A stretch of 46,858 nucleotides of DNA, taken from the NCBI GenBank assembly GCA_028684955.1, contig JAQUEY010000005.1, positions 1-46,858 of the forward strand, in the 5' to 3' direction. This stretch comes from Eubacteriales bacterium. Its GTDB lineage: Bacteria > Bacillota > Clostridia > Saccharofermentanales > UBA5734. The position numbers were made by a program, and so were the translations under genes. Below the pieces are notes generated by a model. That model was not told where the DNA came from, did no database searches, and saw only the letters and a program-made list of their open reading frames with translations. Each line of letters opens with the position of its first letter. Within the stretch, counting starts at the first letter, position 1. This document shows positions 1,146 to 38,152 of this stretch, one piece after another.

Positions 1146-3104
1146 TCAAGGTTTGTGGTCAAACTGGATGAAACGGGTGCGGATGCGCAAGGGTTTGAAC
1201 AAGCGGCCGCCGCCCTCGTAGAATTTGCTGAAAAACTCGACATAATGCAGACGGCTGGTGTGTACGTAGGCAGACAAGGCAGACAGGGCCAGGTTCAGGG
1301 TGTGGCCGATCAACGCAGTCACTGTGAAGACCAGATAGCCGACCGGTGTCGGACCAAGCATGAAGCCGAGCTTGTTGAAGACCATGGCAATGACGCTGGT
1401 GGCCAGGACCAGAGCCAGGATACGGGTGTAGGACAAGATGTCGCTGAAATAGGCGGTGATGTTGTAGAGTGACAAGAGCCCCTTGACCAGGCGCAGGATC
1501 GGATTTTTCGAATCTCGTCCCCCAAACAGGAGCAGGACAACTGCCCCCGCGATGGCCATCACCTGGCCGGCGAATTTCAAGGATACACCGGGAATGAGGC
1601 TGTCACCTCCAAGCATCAGGCCCAGGCCGGTGATCACCAGATACCAGGGAACGACATCCACCAGGGCATCAAACAGCTTGCCGGTTTTGGCCAGCAGGTA
1701 GATCTTGGCGCCCATGGCGGTGAACAGGTGGAGAACACCGAACACCATGCTCCAGACCATGAGGGTCATCGGTTCGACCATCGGGTTGAACCACAGGGAG
1801 GGGACTACGATCTTGCCCTGGCTGAGCACGGTCAGCATGTCACCGAAAAAGCCGCCGAACAAAAAGCCCCAGATGATCGAGCCAATGCCGCTGATGAAGA
1901 GCATGCGCGACATGCGGCCCATCTCTCCAGTTGCCTTTTTCTTGAAGGCTAAGTAGCCGGTCAATCCTGTCAGGACCAGGCCATAGCCAACATCACTGAG
2001 CATCATGCCGAAAAACAGGAAGAAAAATGGCGCCAGCAAGGGAGATGGATCGACATCCTCATGCGAGGGAGGGCTGAACATCTCGACGATGATCTCGAAT
2101 GGCTTGACCAAGGTGTGGTTGTTAAGCTGGACGGGTGGGCTCTCACCCTCAGCAGGAGGCCGGGCCTCGGCTGCTACCAGAAAGCGCTGTTTCAAGGCGC
2201 GTGTGATTTCAGCCGCCAGTTTTTTCGGAACCCAGCCAGTGAGATAGAACGTGTTGGCAGTACCAGGCAGACAACTGAGCGCGTCGATTTTGTCGCTTTG
2301 CAGCAGGTAGTAATCATGCAGCAATTCGAAATCCTTGCCGAGGATAACAAAGTCCTGCAATTCTTTTTCCAAACGTTCAAGCCGACGCTGATTGTCGTCC
2401 GAGTGGTCTGCGATGTCCGCGAGGATCTGGCGCGGCTTGCCAGAAAGGCCCAGGGCAGGTAACAGGTGGAAACCATGCTGGCGCAGGCCAGTGTGGACCA
2501 GGCCTTCACGGAATTTCAACGTAATAACGACCACGCGCACGCTGGCAGAATCTTCGGAGAAAACCTCCACATGGGTCTCAGGGGCTTCTTCCCTGGCCTG
2601 AGCTAAAAAAGCCTCCAGAGTATCCCGTGACGGGAAAGCACCGGCGAAAACCACGGTCTCACGGGTGGCTGTTGTGGCCAGATCGAGTTCGAGACCATCC
2701 CACGGCGTCAAGACCTCTCGGACTGTTTCATCCTGGGCCATGCTGGTGCGTAACTGGGCAATCTGGGACTGGATGTGCTCAAACGAATGGAGCTGTCCCA
2801 TGATTTCTTGCTCACGCTGACCGGCCAGGATGAAATCCTCAGCCCGGGCCAGCCTTTTGGCAGACCCCATGTGATGGCTTTGTGGATCCTGCAGACGGCA
2901 ATACTCAGCAGCGGCTTCCAGGCGCGAGACAGAATTGAGGGATAAAAATCCCCTTTCATCGTAAGGCTCAAGGGATTCCGGTGTAGGCTGGGGCGGCATT
3001 TCATCCAGTTCAACGGCACCGAGGCGGATCAGGGACTCCATGATGTCCGCCTTCTGGGTGGCCAGTCCGACCAGGGTGAGCCGGCTCATTTCAATGACGG
3101 ACAC
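1146..3104 (-). CDS. ntpI: V-type ATP synthase subunit I
   Basis: The a-type stator subunit: an N-terminal cytoplasmic arm that binds the peripheral stalk and a C-terminal membrane domain that supplies the ion half-channels against the K ring. At 652 residues it has the usual family length (about 640-660). Residues ~1-330 are soluble and mixed alpha/beta; from about residue 350 (LLAPFFFLFFGMMLSDVGYG) there are around seven to eight hydrophobic helices, with FSDILSYTRILALVLAT near the end typical of the channel region. The open frame starts at a GTG (3104) that overlaps the preceding gene by 14 bp, with AAAGGA 12 bases upstream; an ATG at 3089, one base after the upstream stop, is the alternative start and would shorten the protein by five residues. 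Confidence 0.93.
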   Translation of the reverse strand: MSVIEMSRLTLVGLATQKADIMESLIRLGAVELDEMPPQPTPESLEPYDERGFLSLNSVSRLEAAAEYCRLQDPQSHHMGSAKRLARAEDFILAGQREQEIMGQLHSFEHIQSQIAQLRTSMAQDETVREVLTPWDGLELDLATTATRETVVFAGAFPSRDTLEAFLAQAREEAPETHVEVFSEDSASVRVVVITLKFREGLVHTGLRQHGFHLLPALGLSGKPRQILADIADHSDDNQRRLERLEKELQDFVILGKDFELLHDYYLLQSDKIDALSCLPGTANTFYLTGWVPKKLAAEITRALKQRFLVAAEARPPAEGESPPVQLNNHTLVKPFEIIVEMFSPPSHEDVDPSPLLAPFFFLFFGMMLSDVGYGLVLTGLTGYLAFKKKATGEMGRMSRMLFISGIGSIIWGFLFGGFFGDMLTVLSQGKIVVPSLWFNPMVEPMTLMVWSMVFGVLHLFTAMGAKIYLLAKTGKLFDALVDVVPWYLVITGLGLMLGGDSLIPGVSLKFAGQVMAIAGAVVLLLFGGRDSKNPILRLVKGLLSLYNITAYFSDILSYTRILALVLATSVIAMVFNKLGFMLGPTPVGYLVFTVTALIGHTLNLALSALSAYVHTSRLHYVEFFSKFYEGGGRLFKPLRIRTRFIQFDHKP

Positions 3105-27543: not shown

Positions 27544-31098
<3,555 letters not shown>

Positions 31099-31121: not shown

Positions 31122-34100
31122 TTATTCGATGTCATCCGTGGCTTCCACGCCCGGTTCGGCCGTGAAATCTTCAAATTCGGCAAAAGCATCCGTGATATCC
31201 AGATCGGCTGTGATGCCACCTTCTTCGTCGAGGACCCCTTCAGTGAAGCCGGCCGACGCGAAGTCTTCTCCTGCATCGGTGTTGCCGATCAGTTCATCGA
31301 GTTTGCTGCGGTCGATTTCCGGGACATCGCCGTCTTCGTCGACCGATTCCTTGATGTCGAGGAGTTCGTTGGTGTCGGAGAAGATGCGGACGTCGAGCGC
31401 CAGGCTCTGGAGTTCCTTGACCAGGACTTTGAAGGATTCTGGCACGCCGGCTTCCGGAACGCTTTCACCCTTGACGATGGCTTCGTAGGTTTTGGTGCGG
31501 CCGGTGATGTCGTCTGACTTGACGGTCAGGATTTCCTGCAGGGTGTAGCTGGCACCATACGCCTCGAGCGCCCAGACTTCCATCTCACCGAAGCGCTGGC
31601 CACCGAACTGGGCCTTGCCGCCAAGGGGCTGCTGGGTGACCAGGGAGTAAGGACCGATCGAACGGGCATGGATCTTGTCGTCGACGAGGTGAAGCAGCTT
31701 GAGGTAGTACATGACGCCGACAGTGATGCGGTTTTCGAAGGGCTGACCCGTGCGGCCATCGTACAGGATGGTTTTGCCGTCCTCGTCGATGCCGGCCTTG
31801 AGGAAGGCATCCACGACGTCTTGTTCGGTGGCTCCGTCAAAGACTGGGGTGGCGATTTTCCAGCCCAGCTGGCGGGCAGCTCGACCGAGATGGACTTCGA
31901 GCAGCTGGCCGATGTTCATACGGGAAGGAACGCCCAGCGGGTTCAAGACGATGTCGAGCGGGGTGCCATCCGGCAGGAAGGGCATGTCTTCTTCCGGCAG
32001 AATGCGGGAAATGACACCTTTGTTGCCGTGGCGGCCAGCCATCTTGTCACCAACCGAGATCTTGCGCTTCTGGGCGATGTAGACCCGGACCAGGCGGTTG
32101 ACACCGTGCTTGAGATCGTCATCGTTCTCACGGGTGAAAACCTTGACGTCGACAACAATACCGGACTCACCGTGCGGGACGCGAACCGATGTGTCGCGAA
32201 CCTCGCGGATCTTCTCACCGAAGATGGCGCGGTAGAGGCGTTCTTCAGCAGTCAGCTCGGTTTCACCTTTCGGGGTGACCTTGCCAACAATGATATCGCC
32301 GGAACGGACTTCCGCACCGATGCGGATGATGCCATACTCGTCGAGATCCTTGAGCGCATCGTCACCAACGTTGGGGATTTCACGGGTGATTTCTTCCGGT
32401 CCGAGCTTGGTGTCGCGGGCTTCGCATTCGTATTCCTCGATGTGGATCGAGGTGTAGACATCTTCACGGACGAGGCGTTCGCTGATCAGGACGGCGTCTT
32501 CGTAGTTGTAGCCTTCCCAGGTCATGAAGCCGATCAGGACATTGCGGCCAAGCGCAATCTCACCATTGTCCGTCGAAGGGCCGTCGGCAATGATGTCGCC
32601 CGCCTTGACGGTTTCGCCACGCTTGACCAGGGGGCGCTGGTTGATGCAGGTGCCTTGGTTGGAGCGCTGGTATTTGACCAGATTATAGGTATCGCGGCTC
32701 ATCGAACCGGTCTTGATGATGATCTTGCTGGCCGAGACAAACTCGACAACGCCGTCGTTCTTGGCGATCGCACAGACGCCTGAGTCCTTGGCGGCATAAT
32801 ACTCCATACCGGTGCCGATGATCGGGGCTTCGGTCTTGATCAGCGGGACGGCCTGGCGCTGCATGTTCGAGCCCATCAGGGCACGGTTGGCGTCGTCGTT
32901 GCCAAGGAAGGGGATCAGTGCCGTGGCAACCGAGACGAGCTGCTTCGGTGAAACGTCCATCAGGTCGACCTTGGCCGGTTCGACTTCGAGGAACTGGTCG
33001 AGGTAGCGGCAAACGATCTGCTTGTCGATGAAACGGCCCTGCTCGTCGAGCGGCTCATTGGCCTGGGCAATGTTGTAGAAGTCTTCTTCGTCGGCAGTCA
33101 TGTAGCGGACTTCACGGGTGACGATGCCGTTTTCCTTGTCGTAGACGCGGTAAGGTGTCTCGATGAAGCCATAGCGATTGACACGGGCATAGGTGGCCAG
33201 CGAGTTGATCAGACCGATGTTCGGACCTTCAGGGGTCTCGATCGGGCACATGCGGCCATAATGCGAGGTGTGGACGTCGCGGACTTCGAAGTTGGCACGT
33301 TCACGGGACAGACCACCTGGGCCGAGGGCCGAGAGACGGCGTTTGTGGGTCAGTTCGGCGAGTGGATTGGGCTGGTCCATGAACTGGGACAGCTGGGAAG
33401 ATCCGAAGAATTCCTTGATTGCAGCACTGACCGGTCGGGTGTTGACGATCATCTGCGGGGTAGCGGCTGCCATGTCCGTCAGGGTGCCCATGCGTTCACG
33501 CACGACACGCTCCATACGGGAGAAACCGACTCGGATCTGGTTCTGCAGCAGTTCGCCAACCGACCGGACACGACGGTTGCCGAGGTGGTCGATGTCGTCC
33601 TTGTTGCCAACGCCATATTCGAGGCCGATCAGGTAGCTGACAGAGGCCACGATATCTTCGACCGTCAAATGCTTGGGCATCAGGTCGGAGACCTTGGTCG
33701 CCAGAAGCTGGCGCAGCATCTGGTCAGGATTGCCACTGGCCTGGACTTCGTGGATGATCCGCTGCAGGACACCCGTGCGGACCTTCTCGGTGATACCAAG
33801 GGCGGCCACATCGAGGTCTGCCACCCTGTCATCACCCAAGCGGGCACGCAGGTATTCGAAGGCATCCACCCGGTTGTTGCCGATGACACGCAGCTTGTTC
33901 TCATTCTGGATGATGGAGTCACCGACCACATTCATCGGGAAAATCGAGACGGAATTAATGCCGGCAGTCTGAATGGCTTCTGCAACGGCGAGAGTGATGA
34001 TTTCACCCTCGGCAACCAGCAATTCACCATTTTCATCAACGACATTTTCGGCAGCCTTATGACCGACCAGACGACGGGCGAGGCTGAGTTTCTTGTTGAG

Positions 34101-34922
34101 CTTGTAGATACCGACACGCGCCAGATCATAACGCTTCGGATCGAAGAACATGTTGTGCAGCAACGTCTCTGCACCTTCGACGGAAACCGGCTCACCCGGA
34201 CGCAGCTTGCGATAGAGCTCCTGCAGACCCTCCTCACGGGTACGGCAGCCGTCCTTGAGCATGGTCTGGGTCAGGCTGTTTTCCTCACCAAAGGTCTCTA
34301 TGATCTGCTCATTGGTGCCAAAGCCCAGAGAGCGCAGGAATATGGTCAGGTGGAATTTCCTGGTGCGGTCGACACGGACCCAGAGCAAATCATTGGCATC
34401 GGTTTCGTATTCCAGCCAGGCACCACGGTTGGGGATGATCTGGGAGGACACCAGTTCTTTGTCGGTCTTATCGGTGGCCTTGCTGAAATAGGCGCCCGGG
34501 GAACGGACCAGCTGGCTGATGATGACGCGCTCGGCCCCGTTGATGATGAAGGTACCATTGTCCGTCATAATCGGGAATTCGCCGATGTAAATGTACTGGT
34601 CTTTGAGAATGTCGTCACGTTTGTTGTGGAGGCGCACCTTCACACGCATCGGGGCGGCATAGTTGGCATCGCGCTCCTTGCATTCCTCGATGGAATACGT
34701 GGGGCTCTGGGTGTCAAATTCCTTGTCAATAAAAGAAAGCTCGATATCTCCGGAATAGTCCGTGATCGGCGATACATCGCGCAGGACCTCCATCAAGCCT
34801 TCATCCAGAAACCACTGGTAACTGTTCTTCTGAATCTCGATGAGATTCGGGATGTCGATGACCTCATCGATCCTCGAGTAGGACATTCTCTCGGCTCTTC
34901 CCAGCTGGACGGGACGCACCAT
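31122..34922 (-). CDS. rpoB: DNA-directed RNA polymerase subunit beta
   Basis: Second catalytic polymerase subunit. The 1266 residues run from [20 protein letters not shown] to the acidic C-terminal tail. The rifampicin pocket reads [31 protein letters not shown] in parts; the residues equivalent to E. coli D516, H526 and S531 are unchanged, so it should be rifampicin sensitive. The frame opens at a TTG (34925), but the ATG at 34922 with GAGG nine bases upstream is preferred. The C-terminal ~75 residues ([24 protein letters not shown] onward) are strongly acidic and longer than in Bacillus. rplL does not precede it and fusA or rpsL do not follow rpoC, unlike the usual cluster. Confidence 0.98.
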
Positions 34923-35011: not shown

Positions 35012-35039
35012 TTGACGACTACCCGGCGGATGCTATAAT
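35012..35039 (+). promoter_or_regulatory. Plus-strand sigma-A promoter inside the rpoB leader
   Basis: -35 TTGACG (35012-35017), 16-bp spacer, -10 TATAAT (35034-35039), with TGC just before the -10 as an extended element. It points away from rpoB and towards the rpoB promoter. Predicted start near 35046. There is no plus-strand gene downstream. Confidence 0.7.
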
Positions 35040-35113
35040 TGACATAAACCAAATCGGTTTGGCGCCCGTTTGAAAGCAGCGAAAACTTCCCCACCTTCTA
35101 GGCGCGTTATAGT

Positions 35114-35142
35114 ATATTATCACCGAGTCATGGGAGTGTCAA
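35114..35142 (-). promoter_or_regulatory. Probable promoter of rpoBC
   Basis: A perfect minus-strand -35 TTGACA (35137-35142) followed by an AT-rich -10 block: TAATAT at 17 bp (35114-35119), GATAAT at 15 bp and TATACT at 20 bp are alternatives. Predicted start near 35107, giving a leader of about 185 nt. The -35 hexamer sits inside one arm of the plus-strand terminator stem. Confidence 0.6.
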
Positions 35143-35161
35143 CGAAAATTGACACTTTTTT
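35135..35161 (+). terminator. Intrinsic terminator facing into the rpoB promoter
   Basis: AGTGTCAA-N6-TTGACACT, an 8-bp perfect stem, followed by T at 35156-35161 (the stem's last T included). It would end plus-strand transcription just past the rpoB -35 element. On the minus strand the same repeat has no downstream T run. Confidence 0.75.
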
Positions 35162-35304: not shown

Positions 35305-36309
35305 TCAGGCTTCCCTGATCACTTCAGGATTGACCTTGGGGGCGGCCGGACTGCGCGACGACAGCCAGCCATTGGCAGTCGCCAGCTTGCCATACCAGGC
35401 GGCGCCTTGGACCTGGATGATGAAGGCCAGGGTCACAATGAGTGCCGTGCCAGGGCCAAAAGCCGAAACAGCGATTCCGAGGGCGATGGACAGGTTGCGC
35501 AGGACCGTTGCATAGACAAAGGCGAACCCATCCTTCACGGTCAGGAATCTGCGAGCCACCAGGGTGCTGAAGACAAAGTTGAATCCATAGAAGACCGAAA
35601 TGACCAGGATCATGTACAGCAGTTTGCCAGGATCTGACAGAATGCTCTTGGCTTTCATGCTGATGCTGGCAAAGATCAGCAGCAGCAAAAACCAAGTACT
35701 GGCAGCCGGGAAATACGGTTTGATCGATTGATTGAATTGCTCCTGCGAGGTGCGGCGGCGGATCAGCATGAAAGTCACACTGCCTGCGATCATCGGCAGA
35801 ACCACTACGAGGGCAATGGTCAGGAAGGTCTGGAGGATGTTGACCTCAATCAGGCTGCCAACAAACAGGTACAGATACCATGGAGCCAGGAAAGATCCCA
35901 GCAACAGGCTGATGGCGGTGATCTTGATCGCCGCTGCGACATTGCCCTTGCTCAGCATGGTCCAGGAAATGGTCATGCCGCTGGTCGGGAAAAGCGAGAT
36001 CATGATCAGACCGACAAAAAGATCCGGCTGGCTGCCCAACAGCAAGCGGCCCATCAGCCAGGCAACCGCTGGAATAGCCACAAAGTTGGCCGCCAGGGCA
36101 ATCAGGAGTGGTTTCATGTGTGATAAGTCAACCGCTTCCTTGATTTTGAATCCAATCATGGTCGGGTAGATCATGAGGAAGGTGATGACCAGGATCCAAT
36201 TCTTGAAGAAAGCTGTATTGACAAGAAGGCCCGTCAAGAAGCCGAGCAGCAAGACAATCGGAATGACAAGAACGAGGTTCTTTGCGGGATAGAGGAAGAT
36301 TTTTTTCAT
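35305..36309 (-). CDS. BASS-superfamily (bile acid:sodium symporter / ACR3-like) transporter
   Basis: 334 residues with about ten membrane helices, from FLYPAKNLVLVIPIVLLLGFLTG to VTLAFIIQVQGAAWYG, followed by a short polar tail. SLFPTSGMTISWTMLSKGN is the substrate-crossover-type motif of the bile acid:sodium symporter/arsenite (ACR3) superfamily. The conserved Cys of arsenite pumps is not present there, so arsenite export is not supported; the substrate may be an organic anion. The ATG at 36309 has AGGAG ten bases upstream; the longer frame to 36360 lacks a ribosome site. It is monocistronic, with a palindrome upstream (36379-36395) that could be an operator. Confidence 0.75.
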   Translation of the reverse strand: MKKIFLYPAKNLVLVIPIVLLLGFLTGLLVNTAFFKNWILVITFLMIYPTMIGFKIKEAVDLSHMKPLLIALAANFVAIPAVAWLMGRLLLGSQPDLFVGLIMISLFPTSGMTISWTMLSKGNVAAAIKITAISLLLGSFLAPWYLYLFVGSLIEVNILQTFLTIALVVVLPMIAGSVTFMLIRRRTSQEQFNQSIKPYFPAASTWFLLLLIFASISMKAKSILSDPGKLLYMILVISVFYGFNFVFSTLVARRFLTVKDGFAFVYATVLRNLSIALGIAVSAFGPGTALIVTLAFIIQVQGAAWYGKLATANGWLSSRSPAAPKVNPEVIREA

Positions 36310-36378
36310 GTGGGTGGTGCTCCTGTATGAGAACGAATCAGCAGTCGATTGGCAATGCATCGAGCAGCGGGTGTTAAA

Positions 36379-36395
36379 GACAATTTATTATTGTC
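36379..36395. promoter_or_regulatory. Palindrome upstream of the BASS transporter gene
   Basis: GACAAT-N5-ATTGTC, perfect 6-bp arms, with imperfect extension (AAA ... CCTT). It lies 70 bp before the ATG in an AT-rich stretch where the -10 element is expected, a usual place for a repressor site. The binding protein is unknown. Confidence 0.5.
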
Positions 36396-36477
36396 CCTTA
36401 CCCGGGTATTTTCTGTAAGAACATCACGCATCCGGCAAATTTTCCTGGTCTCTGGCACTTGGAAAGGTTAGTCGCCC

Positions 36478-36516
36478 AAAAAAAGCCCCCTTTTCCTGAC
36501 CGGCAGGAAAAGGGGG
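36478..36516 (-). terminator. Intrinsic terminator of the PrsA-like gene
   Basis: CCCCCTTTTCCTG (36486-36498), 5-nt loop, CAGGAAAAGGGGG (36504-36516): a perfect 13-bp stem. In the minus direction it is followed by G and seven T (36478-36484). It lies 47 bp after the stop of the foldase gene. Confidence 0.93.
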
Positions 36517-36563
36517 ACATGTTGTTATTTTAAGATTTTACCCAAAAACGGGTCCAGAAACAA

Positions 36564-38090
36564 TCAGGGGACAAAACGCAGTCCAAGATCGTTCAGCTCA
36601 TAAGGATAGGCTGTCTTGAGTTCAGTCAGATAGGCCCGGTAAGCCTCGTCAGCGAGAACGGAACGGACGTTGATCTCCCATTCCACCCCAGCCGGACGGA
36701 CAAAATACATGACGTGGAAACCGTAATTGGTCTGGACCACTTCGGTGTCGCCGGTTTTGCGGGCCGGGTCGAAAATCCAGTTATTAAAGGTATCTACCAT
36801 CTGTCCCGGATAAATATCGGTGTAAATGCCGCCGTCGGCAGCATTGCCGTCCTCGGAGTTGACCTTGGCCAGTTCAGCGAAAGCATCCTCGGTCTGTTCG
36901 CCAGCCCGGTACTGGGCCAGGATATCATCAGCCTTGGCTTTGGCAGCGGCGATTTCTTCTTCTGTGGCTGTCGTTTCGTCAGCCATGATCAGGATATGAC
37001 GGACATCGACCCGTGGCTGGTCGTCGATCGAACGGTTGATAAAATACAAGACGGTGCTGCTGGCAGCGTCGGAATCATCCACCACGGTCATGTCGCCCGC
37101 TTTCCTGGCCTCGTCAAACAGCCAGGCCGACTGGGAGAGGGAACTGATGCTGTAATAGCGGGTGTCAGCCATGAGTGACGCGTCGTCATTGGTGTAGGAG
37201 TCCTTCTGGTCTTGTGCGGCGTTGGCAATGGCCTGGGCTTTGAAGCTGGCCTCATCTGTCACGAGAGTAGCCATGGCTTCGGCCTTGGCTTTGGCCTCGG
37301 CTGCTGCTTTTTCCTTGTCGGCATCGCTGGCATCTTCAGCCACATCTGCCGCAAAGGTGAACGCCCGATAACTGACCTTATCATATTCATCGCGATGCTC
37401 ATCGTAGTAGGCTTTCAGTTCGGCATCGCTGAATTCAAAGGATTCCTGTTTCTGGGCTGCATATTTCTGGGCCAGGAGCAGCCGTTCAAAGGCGGGGCGG
37501 AGGCTCTCTGTGGTGGCGCCTTTACCAAAATACTGGGCCATGAAATTGGTCATGGTCATCTGGGAGGCATCCGCCTGCTGCTGCAGCGTCTCGTAGAAAT
37601 CCGTGATTTTCTGCTGGTCGCTGTCATCGAGGGCCAGGCCAGCCTTTGAAGCTTCATCGGCCAGCATCACATTCTCCTGGACCATCTGGGCAGCAGAATC
37701 GACGAGCATGTCCTTGTAGGTATCAAACCCTTCCACCGTGCTGGGCATGGACAAGGTCACATCGGCTGTGGCCGGATCGGTCATGTCGATGCCGTAATTG
37801 CTGGCGGTCATGTAGAAATAGTAGTTCAGCTCCGCGACTTTGACGGCTTTGCCGTTGACGCTCATGGCTGACAAGGTCTGCTGGGGCAGTCCGCTGTTAA
37901 GGGCAAACCAGCCACTCGTCACCAGAATCGCCCCAATCAGGACGATTGCGAGGATGATCTTGAAAAGCGGGTTGCCAGTCTTGAGCGGCTTTTTGCCGCC
38001 GTTCTTGTCTTTCAAGCTGTTCAGGCGGGCTTTGCGTTCCGCTCTGGCTTGCTCGGAATGCCACTGATTGTCTGTTTTGGGTTCATTCAT
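36564..38090 (-). CDS. Membrane-anchored PrsA/SurA-type peptidyl-prolyl isomerase
   Basis: Extracytoplasmic foldase for secreted proteins. The 508 residues start with a positively charged cytoplasmic segment, one membrane helix at ~43-64 (FKIILAIVLIGAILVTSGWF), a SurA_N-type chaperone region, and a parvulin domain at ~370-485 (VDVRHILIMADE, DGNAADGGIY, GFHVMYFV). There is no lipobox, unlike Bacillus PrsA, so it is held by the uncleaved helix. A long Ala/Lys/Asp-rich helix (EKAAAEAKAKAEAMATL) lies mid-protein. The ATG at 38090 is chosen from the family-like start and a nearby AGGATGGAAG; upstream in-frame ATGs (38126, 38150) lack sites. Good promoter and terminator flank it, so it is monocistronic. 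Confidence 0.85.
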   Translation of the reverse strand: MNEPKTDNQWHSEQARAERKARLNSLKDKNGGKKPLKTGNPLFKIILAIVLIGAILVTSGWFALNSGLPQQTLSAMSVNGKAVKVAELNYYFYMTASNYGIDMTDPATADVTLSMPSTVEGFDTYKDMLVDSAAQMVQENVMLADEASKAGLALDDSDQQKITDFYETLQQQADASQMTMTNFMAQYFGKGATTESLRPAFERLLLAQKYAAQKQESFEFSDAELKAYYDEHRDEYDKVSYRAFTFAADVAEDASDADKEKAAAEAKAKAEAMATLVTDEASFKAQAIANAAQDQKDSYTNDDASLMADTRYYSISSLSQSAWLFDEARKAGDMTVVDDSDAASSTVLYFINRSIDDQPRVDVRHILIMADETTATEEEIAAAKAKADDILAQYRAGEQTEDAFAELAKVNSEDGNAADGGIYTDIYPGQMVDTFNNWIFDPARKTGDTEVVQTNYGFHVMYFVRPAGVEWEINVRSVLADEAYRAYLTELKTAYPYELNDLGLRFVP

Positions 38091-38152
38091 AGAGGGCTTC
38101 CATCCTTTATTCTTGTTCAAAATCATGATGTTTCGGGGTTGCACAGACAACC

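Follow-up and report, generated by a model that had tools for sequence, protein, structure and literature searches.

Convergent predicted promoters in the rpoBC leader of Clostridia and their putative role in transcriptional interference

The rpoBC leader and its features

In the window, by which we mean the whole 46,858-nt stretch of DNA analysed here, the gene encoding the beta subunit of RNA polymerase, rpoB, occupies positions 31122 to 34922 of the minus strand, as identified by its Pfam RNA_pol_Rpb2 domains, and its ATG at 34922 is common to the relatives. The codirectional rpoC (27544-31098, minus strand), which encodes the beta' subunit and displays Pfam RNA_pol_Rpb1 domains, lies downstream. 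The rpoB promoter (35114-35142, minus strand) is found at the same position in relatives and is composed of a -35 hexamer TTGACA (35142-35137), a spacer of 17 bp whose last bases are TGA and a -10 hexamer TAATAT (35119-35114), with a predicted start at about 35107. A 15-codon leader ORF directly upstream of rpoB in the window was considered and rejected, since its ATG is missing there in L002 and L003. The gene upstream of rpoB encodes an SBF symporter according to Pfam, likewise on the minus strand; within 35305-38150 (minus strand) it sits between a PPIase gene and rpoB. The PPIase gene is preceded by a strong promoter (TTGTCA-16-TATAAT, 38180-38153, minus strand), and a 13-bp inverted repeat (36486-36516), terminator-like on the minus strand, is located between both genes. 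A codirectional PPIase gene is also found upstream of rpoB in family f1 and in genera g11 and g13 of family f3, the families and genera of the order being referred to by codes.

On the opposite strand of the rpoB leader, a putative antisense sigma-A promoter is found at 35012-35039 (plus strand), with a -35 hexamer TTGACG (35012-35017), a 16-bp spacer closed by the extended -10 element TGC (35031-35033) and a -10 hexamer TATAAT (35034-35039). Its hexamers match the consensus in 11 of 12 positions, and its -10 hexamer lies 74 nt from that of the rpoB promoter. From the distance to the -10 and the end of a downstream T run, an antisense RNA of about 116 nt is predicted at 35046-35161 (plus strand). 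Both transcription starts are predicted from hexamers, that of the antisense RNA being unmapped, and between them a region of about 60 nt (35046-35107), consistent with the start-to-start distance in relatives, would be transcribed on both strands. By position, the predicted RNA is complementary to about 60 nt of the 5' end of the predicted rpoB mRNA; this overlap, which precedes the rpoB start codon by roughly 120-185 nt, stops short of the ribosome-binding site. No match in the window reached the gathering score of Rfam 15, and the predicted RNA folds with a z of -0.64 (RNAfold), the terminator hairpin being its sole clear structure. The exact extended -10 pattern (TTGAC-N14-TGN-TATAAT) occurs twice in the 2.7 Mb genome, and the sole other copy is found in L180, on contig C47 at 2507-2534 (plus strand).

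The intrinsic terminator (35135-35161, plus strand) consists of an 8-bp stem, AGTGTCAA (35135-35142) and TTGACACT (35149-35156), enclosing the loop CGAAAA and followed by six T through 35161. The hairpin is kept by RNAfold, and within its 5' arm lies the sequence complementary to the rpoB -35 hexamer. In f1 the hairpin likewise includes the rpoB -35 and ends 9-17 nt past it, and in an alignment of 11 f1 sequences the stem is paired in 93.9% of cells and two of its pairs show compensatory changes in both arms. The mean terminator z is -2.81 in f1, -0.87 in f3 and -0.09 in leaders without the antisense promoter. A hairpin that includes or adjoins the rpoB -35 is also found in L059, L215, L229, L247 and L254. 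In some f3 relatives that keep the promoter no short terminated antisense RNA is predicted. A reading of the TGTCAA/TTGACA inverted repeat as a GlnR/TnrA-like operator was rejected, because the spacing of its centre misses by one position and because its covariation is that of a terminator stem.

A sequence-only reading of this region had claimed a strong plus-strand promoter (TTGACG-N16-TATAAT with TGC) in the rpoB leader, an 8-bp stem with six T downstream and no plus-strand gene to serve, and all three claims held. In the window no plus-strand gene is served by the antisense promoter because the upstream symporter gene is on the minus strand; Pfam families were assigned to rpoB, rpoC and the symporter, and none matched the two mechanically called plus-strand ORFs of the leader region. 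The further claim of an RNA of about 116 nt, overlapping the rpoB mRNA in antisense by about 60 nt and ending on the rpoB -35, held as a sequence prediction. Taken by themselves, however, the sites of the window are within chance, 5 promoter-like and 14 terminator-like sites being present in the 10-kb region scanned vs 4.3 and 9.2 in shuffles; the significance of the antisense promoter rests on its conservation in relatives and not on the window sequence itself.

Conservation and distribution of the promoter pair

The regions upstream of rpoB were gathered from some 92 genomes belonging to the order, most of them fragmented. By promoter score, the antisense promoter was found in all 45 leaders examined in f1 and f3 once genera g4 and g24, respectively, are set aside, 0.35 being expected from dinucleotide shuffles, and in none of the 47 leaders of f2, f4, g4 and g24; a single genome of f1 (genus g6) was left unplaced. 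The score threshold and the search patterns were fixed after the first genomes had been viewed, and the 45 leaders are related and do not constitute independent trials, so that it is the contrast with their diverged surroundings that carries weight. The order-wide form is TTGAC[G/A/C/T]-16 bp-TATAAT (TATGAT once), with an invariable spacer of 16 bp and a TGn before the -10 in all carriers but genus g25. When 13 genera are weighted equally, the information content per site is 1.81 bits in the -35, 1.97 in the -10 and 1.23 in the TGn, and only 0.42 in the spacer and 0.19 in the first 33 nt of the RNA. Conservation across these genera is limited to the promoter elements, and the body of the RNA is not conserved. 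The start-to-start distance in relatives is mostly 59-67 nt (range 53-95). The antisense -10 is the consensus and the sense -10 usually matches it in 3-5 of 6 positions; as the total promoter scores are similar, the stronger promoter of the pair cannot be told from sequence.

The pair is specific to one locus. A search of 186 genomes of the order with the convergent-pair pattern returned 38 matches, 36 of them at rpoB (by coordinates or leader sequence) and the remaining two at G028:C1:648281 and G013:C9:248; the reversed control pattern gave no match in the same genomes. In the order of genome G211 the pattern was present in 36 of 58 genomes (39 matches), again with none for the reversed control, and in most of these matches the rpoB start sequence is present, either as AACTGCGTTATAAT or in a closely similar form. 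Among ten loci fetched from that order, eight have rpoB no more than 700 nt downstream, one (L280) is unresolved and one (L281) is not rpoB-like.

Class-wide, antisense/rpoB pairs were found in 43 of 153 rpoB leaders, where about 1.8 were expected. Carriers of the pair include the cultured Hydrogenoanaerobacterium saccharovorans (L050) and Anaerocolumna sedimenticola (L059). A strong antisense promoter, counted when its distance to the predicted rpoB start was 15-105 nt, was present in 21 of 71 named Clostridia loci (0.77 expected, with a background density elsewhere in these loci of 0.010 per 91-nt window) and in 22 of 82 leaders of an even sample of class genomes (1.05 expected). In other orders the antisense spacer is 17 bp; gaps of 31-39 nt dominate one locus group, many of whose members are labelled Ruminococcaceae or Oscillospiraceae, and gaps of 53-59 are found in families f25, f28 and f55. 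The promoter is missing in most of the Lachnospiraceae-labelled loci examined, and mapping the trait onto a 131-sequence rpoB tree requires no fewer than 15 changes. The trait is patchy and has been repeatedly gained or lost; since f2, f4, g4, g24 and most Lachnospiraceae-labelled loci are without it, rpoB can do without it. As a separate observation, the first nucleotides of the rpoB mRNA (about 35090-35108 of the window, minus strand; also L199, L056, L282 and others) are conserved across Clostridia as CTGCGTTATAATTT and CTGTATCATAATGG, and as ACGCGTCATAAGGTGG in f1, both with and without the antisense promoter, and perhaps constitute an escape or pause element.

The sequence-only reading had also proposed an antisense transcription unit, with conservation in relatives as a check. 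The promoter is kept in f1 (without g4) and f3 (without g24) and the stem covaries in f1; together with the conserved distance between the two promoters, these results strongly support such a unit facing rpoB. In the absence of an observed transcript, this is an inference from sequence evidence and not a proof.

Known systems and rival explanations

The nearest precedent comes from Bacillus subtilis, where helD and pps are governed by a convergent two-promoter rifampicin alarm that was published in 2026 and experimentally proven (PMC12802891). In it, the convergent arrangement represses the sense promoter until rifampicin arrests RNA polymerase at the antisense one. Induction of helD reaches almost two orders of magnitude. 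As in that system, two sigma-A promoters stand face to face at rpoB, with the antisense one inside the 5' UTR and provided with an extended -10. A short antisense RNA with an intrinsic terminator is also shared, of about 90 nt at helD and of about 116 nt as predicted at rpoB, even though this likeness is predicted in the window and f1 only and is undetected in many f3 genomes. The starts are 39 bp apart at helD, compared with about 60 nt at rpoB in the window and 31-39 nt in other Clostridia, and the published search for such pairs allowed 45-100 bp between promoters; the predicted spacing in the window leaves the two promoters enough room to avoid a clash. At helD and pps the authors remark on an antisense spacer of 19 bp, without stating that it is required, whereas that of rpoB measures 16 bp in this order and 17 bp in others. 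Furthermore, the rpoB pair controls, if functional, a core RNA-polymerase gene and not a protection gene, its terminator contains the sense -35, it is conserved across families at one locus, and it is without experimental support. In PMC12802891 rpoB is not discussed as a controlled gene, although the supplementary hit tables of that paper, which cover 18,798 genes, may list it uncommented. No helD copy is available for comparison in the genome of the window, where HelD gave only weak partial matches below the cut-off.

Other precedents are more distant. In mycobacteria rifampicin also raises rpoB transcription through the interplay of two promoters, but these are promoters I and II, the former being preferentially inhibited by rifampicin, and no antisense promoter is mentioned in the abstract (PMC6181997). 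The autogenous control of rpoBC in E. coli (Dykxhoorn 1996, cited in PMC4670729) shares the feedback on beta/beta' synthesis; it differs in operating by transcriptional and translational control, and to our knowledge no antisense promoter takes part in it. In the convergent promoters of phage 186 and of Shigella icsA (cited in PMC12802891) a strong promoter suppresses a weaker opposing one, although in other genes with other biological roles and no tie to RNA-polymerase supply. The literature searched, from which most subscription titles were absent, contained no description of an antisense RNA at rpoB in Clostridia.

The sequence-only reading had left base pairing and polymerase collision as alternative modes of action, and polymerase interference fits better. 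If the antisense RNA paired with the first 60 nt or so of the rpoB mRNA, it could alter its stability or early termination, and both the discrete terminated RNA predicted in f1 and the full complementarity, by position, to the mRNA 5' end speak for this possibility. Nevertheless, the ribosome-binding site is outside the overlap, in several f3 lineages the promoter is retained and a terminator at the rpoB -35 is not detectable, and positions +1 to +33 are unconserved, the latter being weak evidence since sequence conservation is not required of a cis-antisense RNA. Pairing is regarded as unlikely. Interference is preferred because the promoter elements are conserved and the RNA body is not, because the overlap misses the ribosome-binding site and because some f3 genomes keep the promoter without the short terminated RNA. 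The element could instead be the promoter of a divergent upstream gene, located by chance within the rpoB leader. Such genes do exist in f3, being Mur ligase-like in g20 and g26 (L024, L025, L126 and L136; MurT-like), ArsR-like in g25 (L028) and FemAB-like in g15 (L149), mostly without a terminator between promoter and gene; in g20 and g26 terminators at the rpoB -35 are mostly undetected, which is consistent with read-through into the divergent gene. It is conceivable that in these genera the antisense promoter also feeds that gene. As a general explanation this is very improbable, given that the upstream gene is codirectional (SBF symporter or PPIase) in the window, in those f1 genomes whose upstream neighbor was identifiable and in f3 g11 and g13, that the f1 terminator blocks the way and that the promoter is retained while the neighboring gene varies; for the window itself it is unlikely.

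Two further readings are held to be very unlikely. According to one, the conserved blocks would either be bound by an unidentified protein or belong to the rpoB mRNA as one of its elements, in support of which the -35 mostly ends in G, C or T and not in A, and the spacer, constant in the order, is more rigid than in most promoters. All three conserved blocks correspond, however, to the -35, TGn and -10 elements of sigma-A promoters, and the same blocks appear with a 17-bp spacer in other orders. The other reading invokes recycling, in which a polymerase terminating at 35161 would stay on the DNA and restart at the rpoB promoter, so that the antisense unit would load rpoB instead of repressing it. 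In support of this, post-termination polymerase of E. coli can restart in the reverse direction (PMC6978322), and the terminator overlies the rpoB -35. Yet recycling leaves unexplained the lineages without a terminator at that position, and at helD the antisense promoter represses (PMC12802891).

Putative interference at rpoBC

Based on sequence and precedent, and in the absence of expression data, we hypothesize that the antisense promoter exerts transcriptional interference on rpoBC, which we consider the best explanation and favor by a modest margin. While the sequence, geometry, conservation and locus specificity of the pair are shown, transcription from the antisense promoter and interference by it are inferred by analogy with the precedents. 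According to this hypothesis, a selected antisense sigma-A promoter in the rpoB leader would fire head-on at the rpoB promoter some 60 nt away, and in the family of the window the short antisense transcript would stop at a terminator that encloses the rpoB -35. The antisense RNA polymerases would traverse and clear the rpoB promoter, and rpoBC output would be set by the interference between the promoters, without any regulator protein dedicated to it. When inhibited or scarce RNA polymerase silences the antisense promoter, rpoBC output would rise or be protected, as at helD and pps, and the pair would act as a sensor of RNA-polymerase activity on the genes of RNA polymerase itself. That rifamycins or the level of RNA polymerase are sensed in this manner remains a hypothesis, albeit a possible one. 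The rifampicin-contact residues of RpoB appear to be wild type, and a response to rifamycins is therefore possible; in the rifampicin region near residue 514 most members of the order carry FMDQPN, and other Clostridia mostly FMDQTN or FMDQNN.

A toy stochastic simulation was run with assumed rates, antisense escape being 10 times faster than sense escape and the gap 61 nt. Without the antisense promoter, the output of 40.6 per 1000 s drops to 9.2 at 10% inhibited polymerase; with it, the output goes from 14.3 to 16.7 per 1000 s. Likewise, raising the polymerase level from 0.5 to 4 takes the output from 36.4 to 46.2 in the absence of the antisense promoter and from 16.6 to 11.7 in its presence. 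In the model the pair is thus predicted to protect rpoB output at 0-10% inhibited polymerase and to flatten the response to polymerase level, which indicates what the layout can do and not what it does.

A bolder reading, offered tentatively and in our view more apt to fail than to hold, if not by much, is that much of the class Clostridia controls its core RNA-polymerase genes through a protein-free sensor consisting of two promoters that collide, in which polymerase activity at the antisense promoter would set the amount of beta/beta' made and so provide both supply homeostasis and an alarm against antibiotics that block the polymerase. If true, interference at rpoBC would represent a direct mechanism for setting the supply of RNA polymerase in many Gram-positive anaerobes, the recently published promoter-collision alarm (PMC12802891) would sit on the drug target gene itself, and in gut Clostridia rifamycins, perhaps together with other polymerase inhibitors, would increase or protect the transcription of rpoB.
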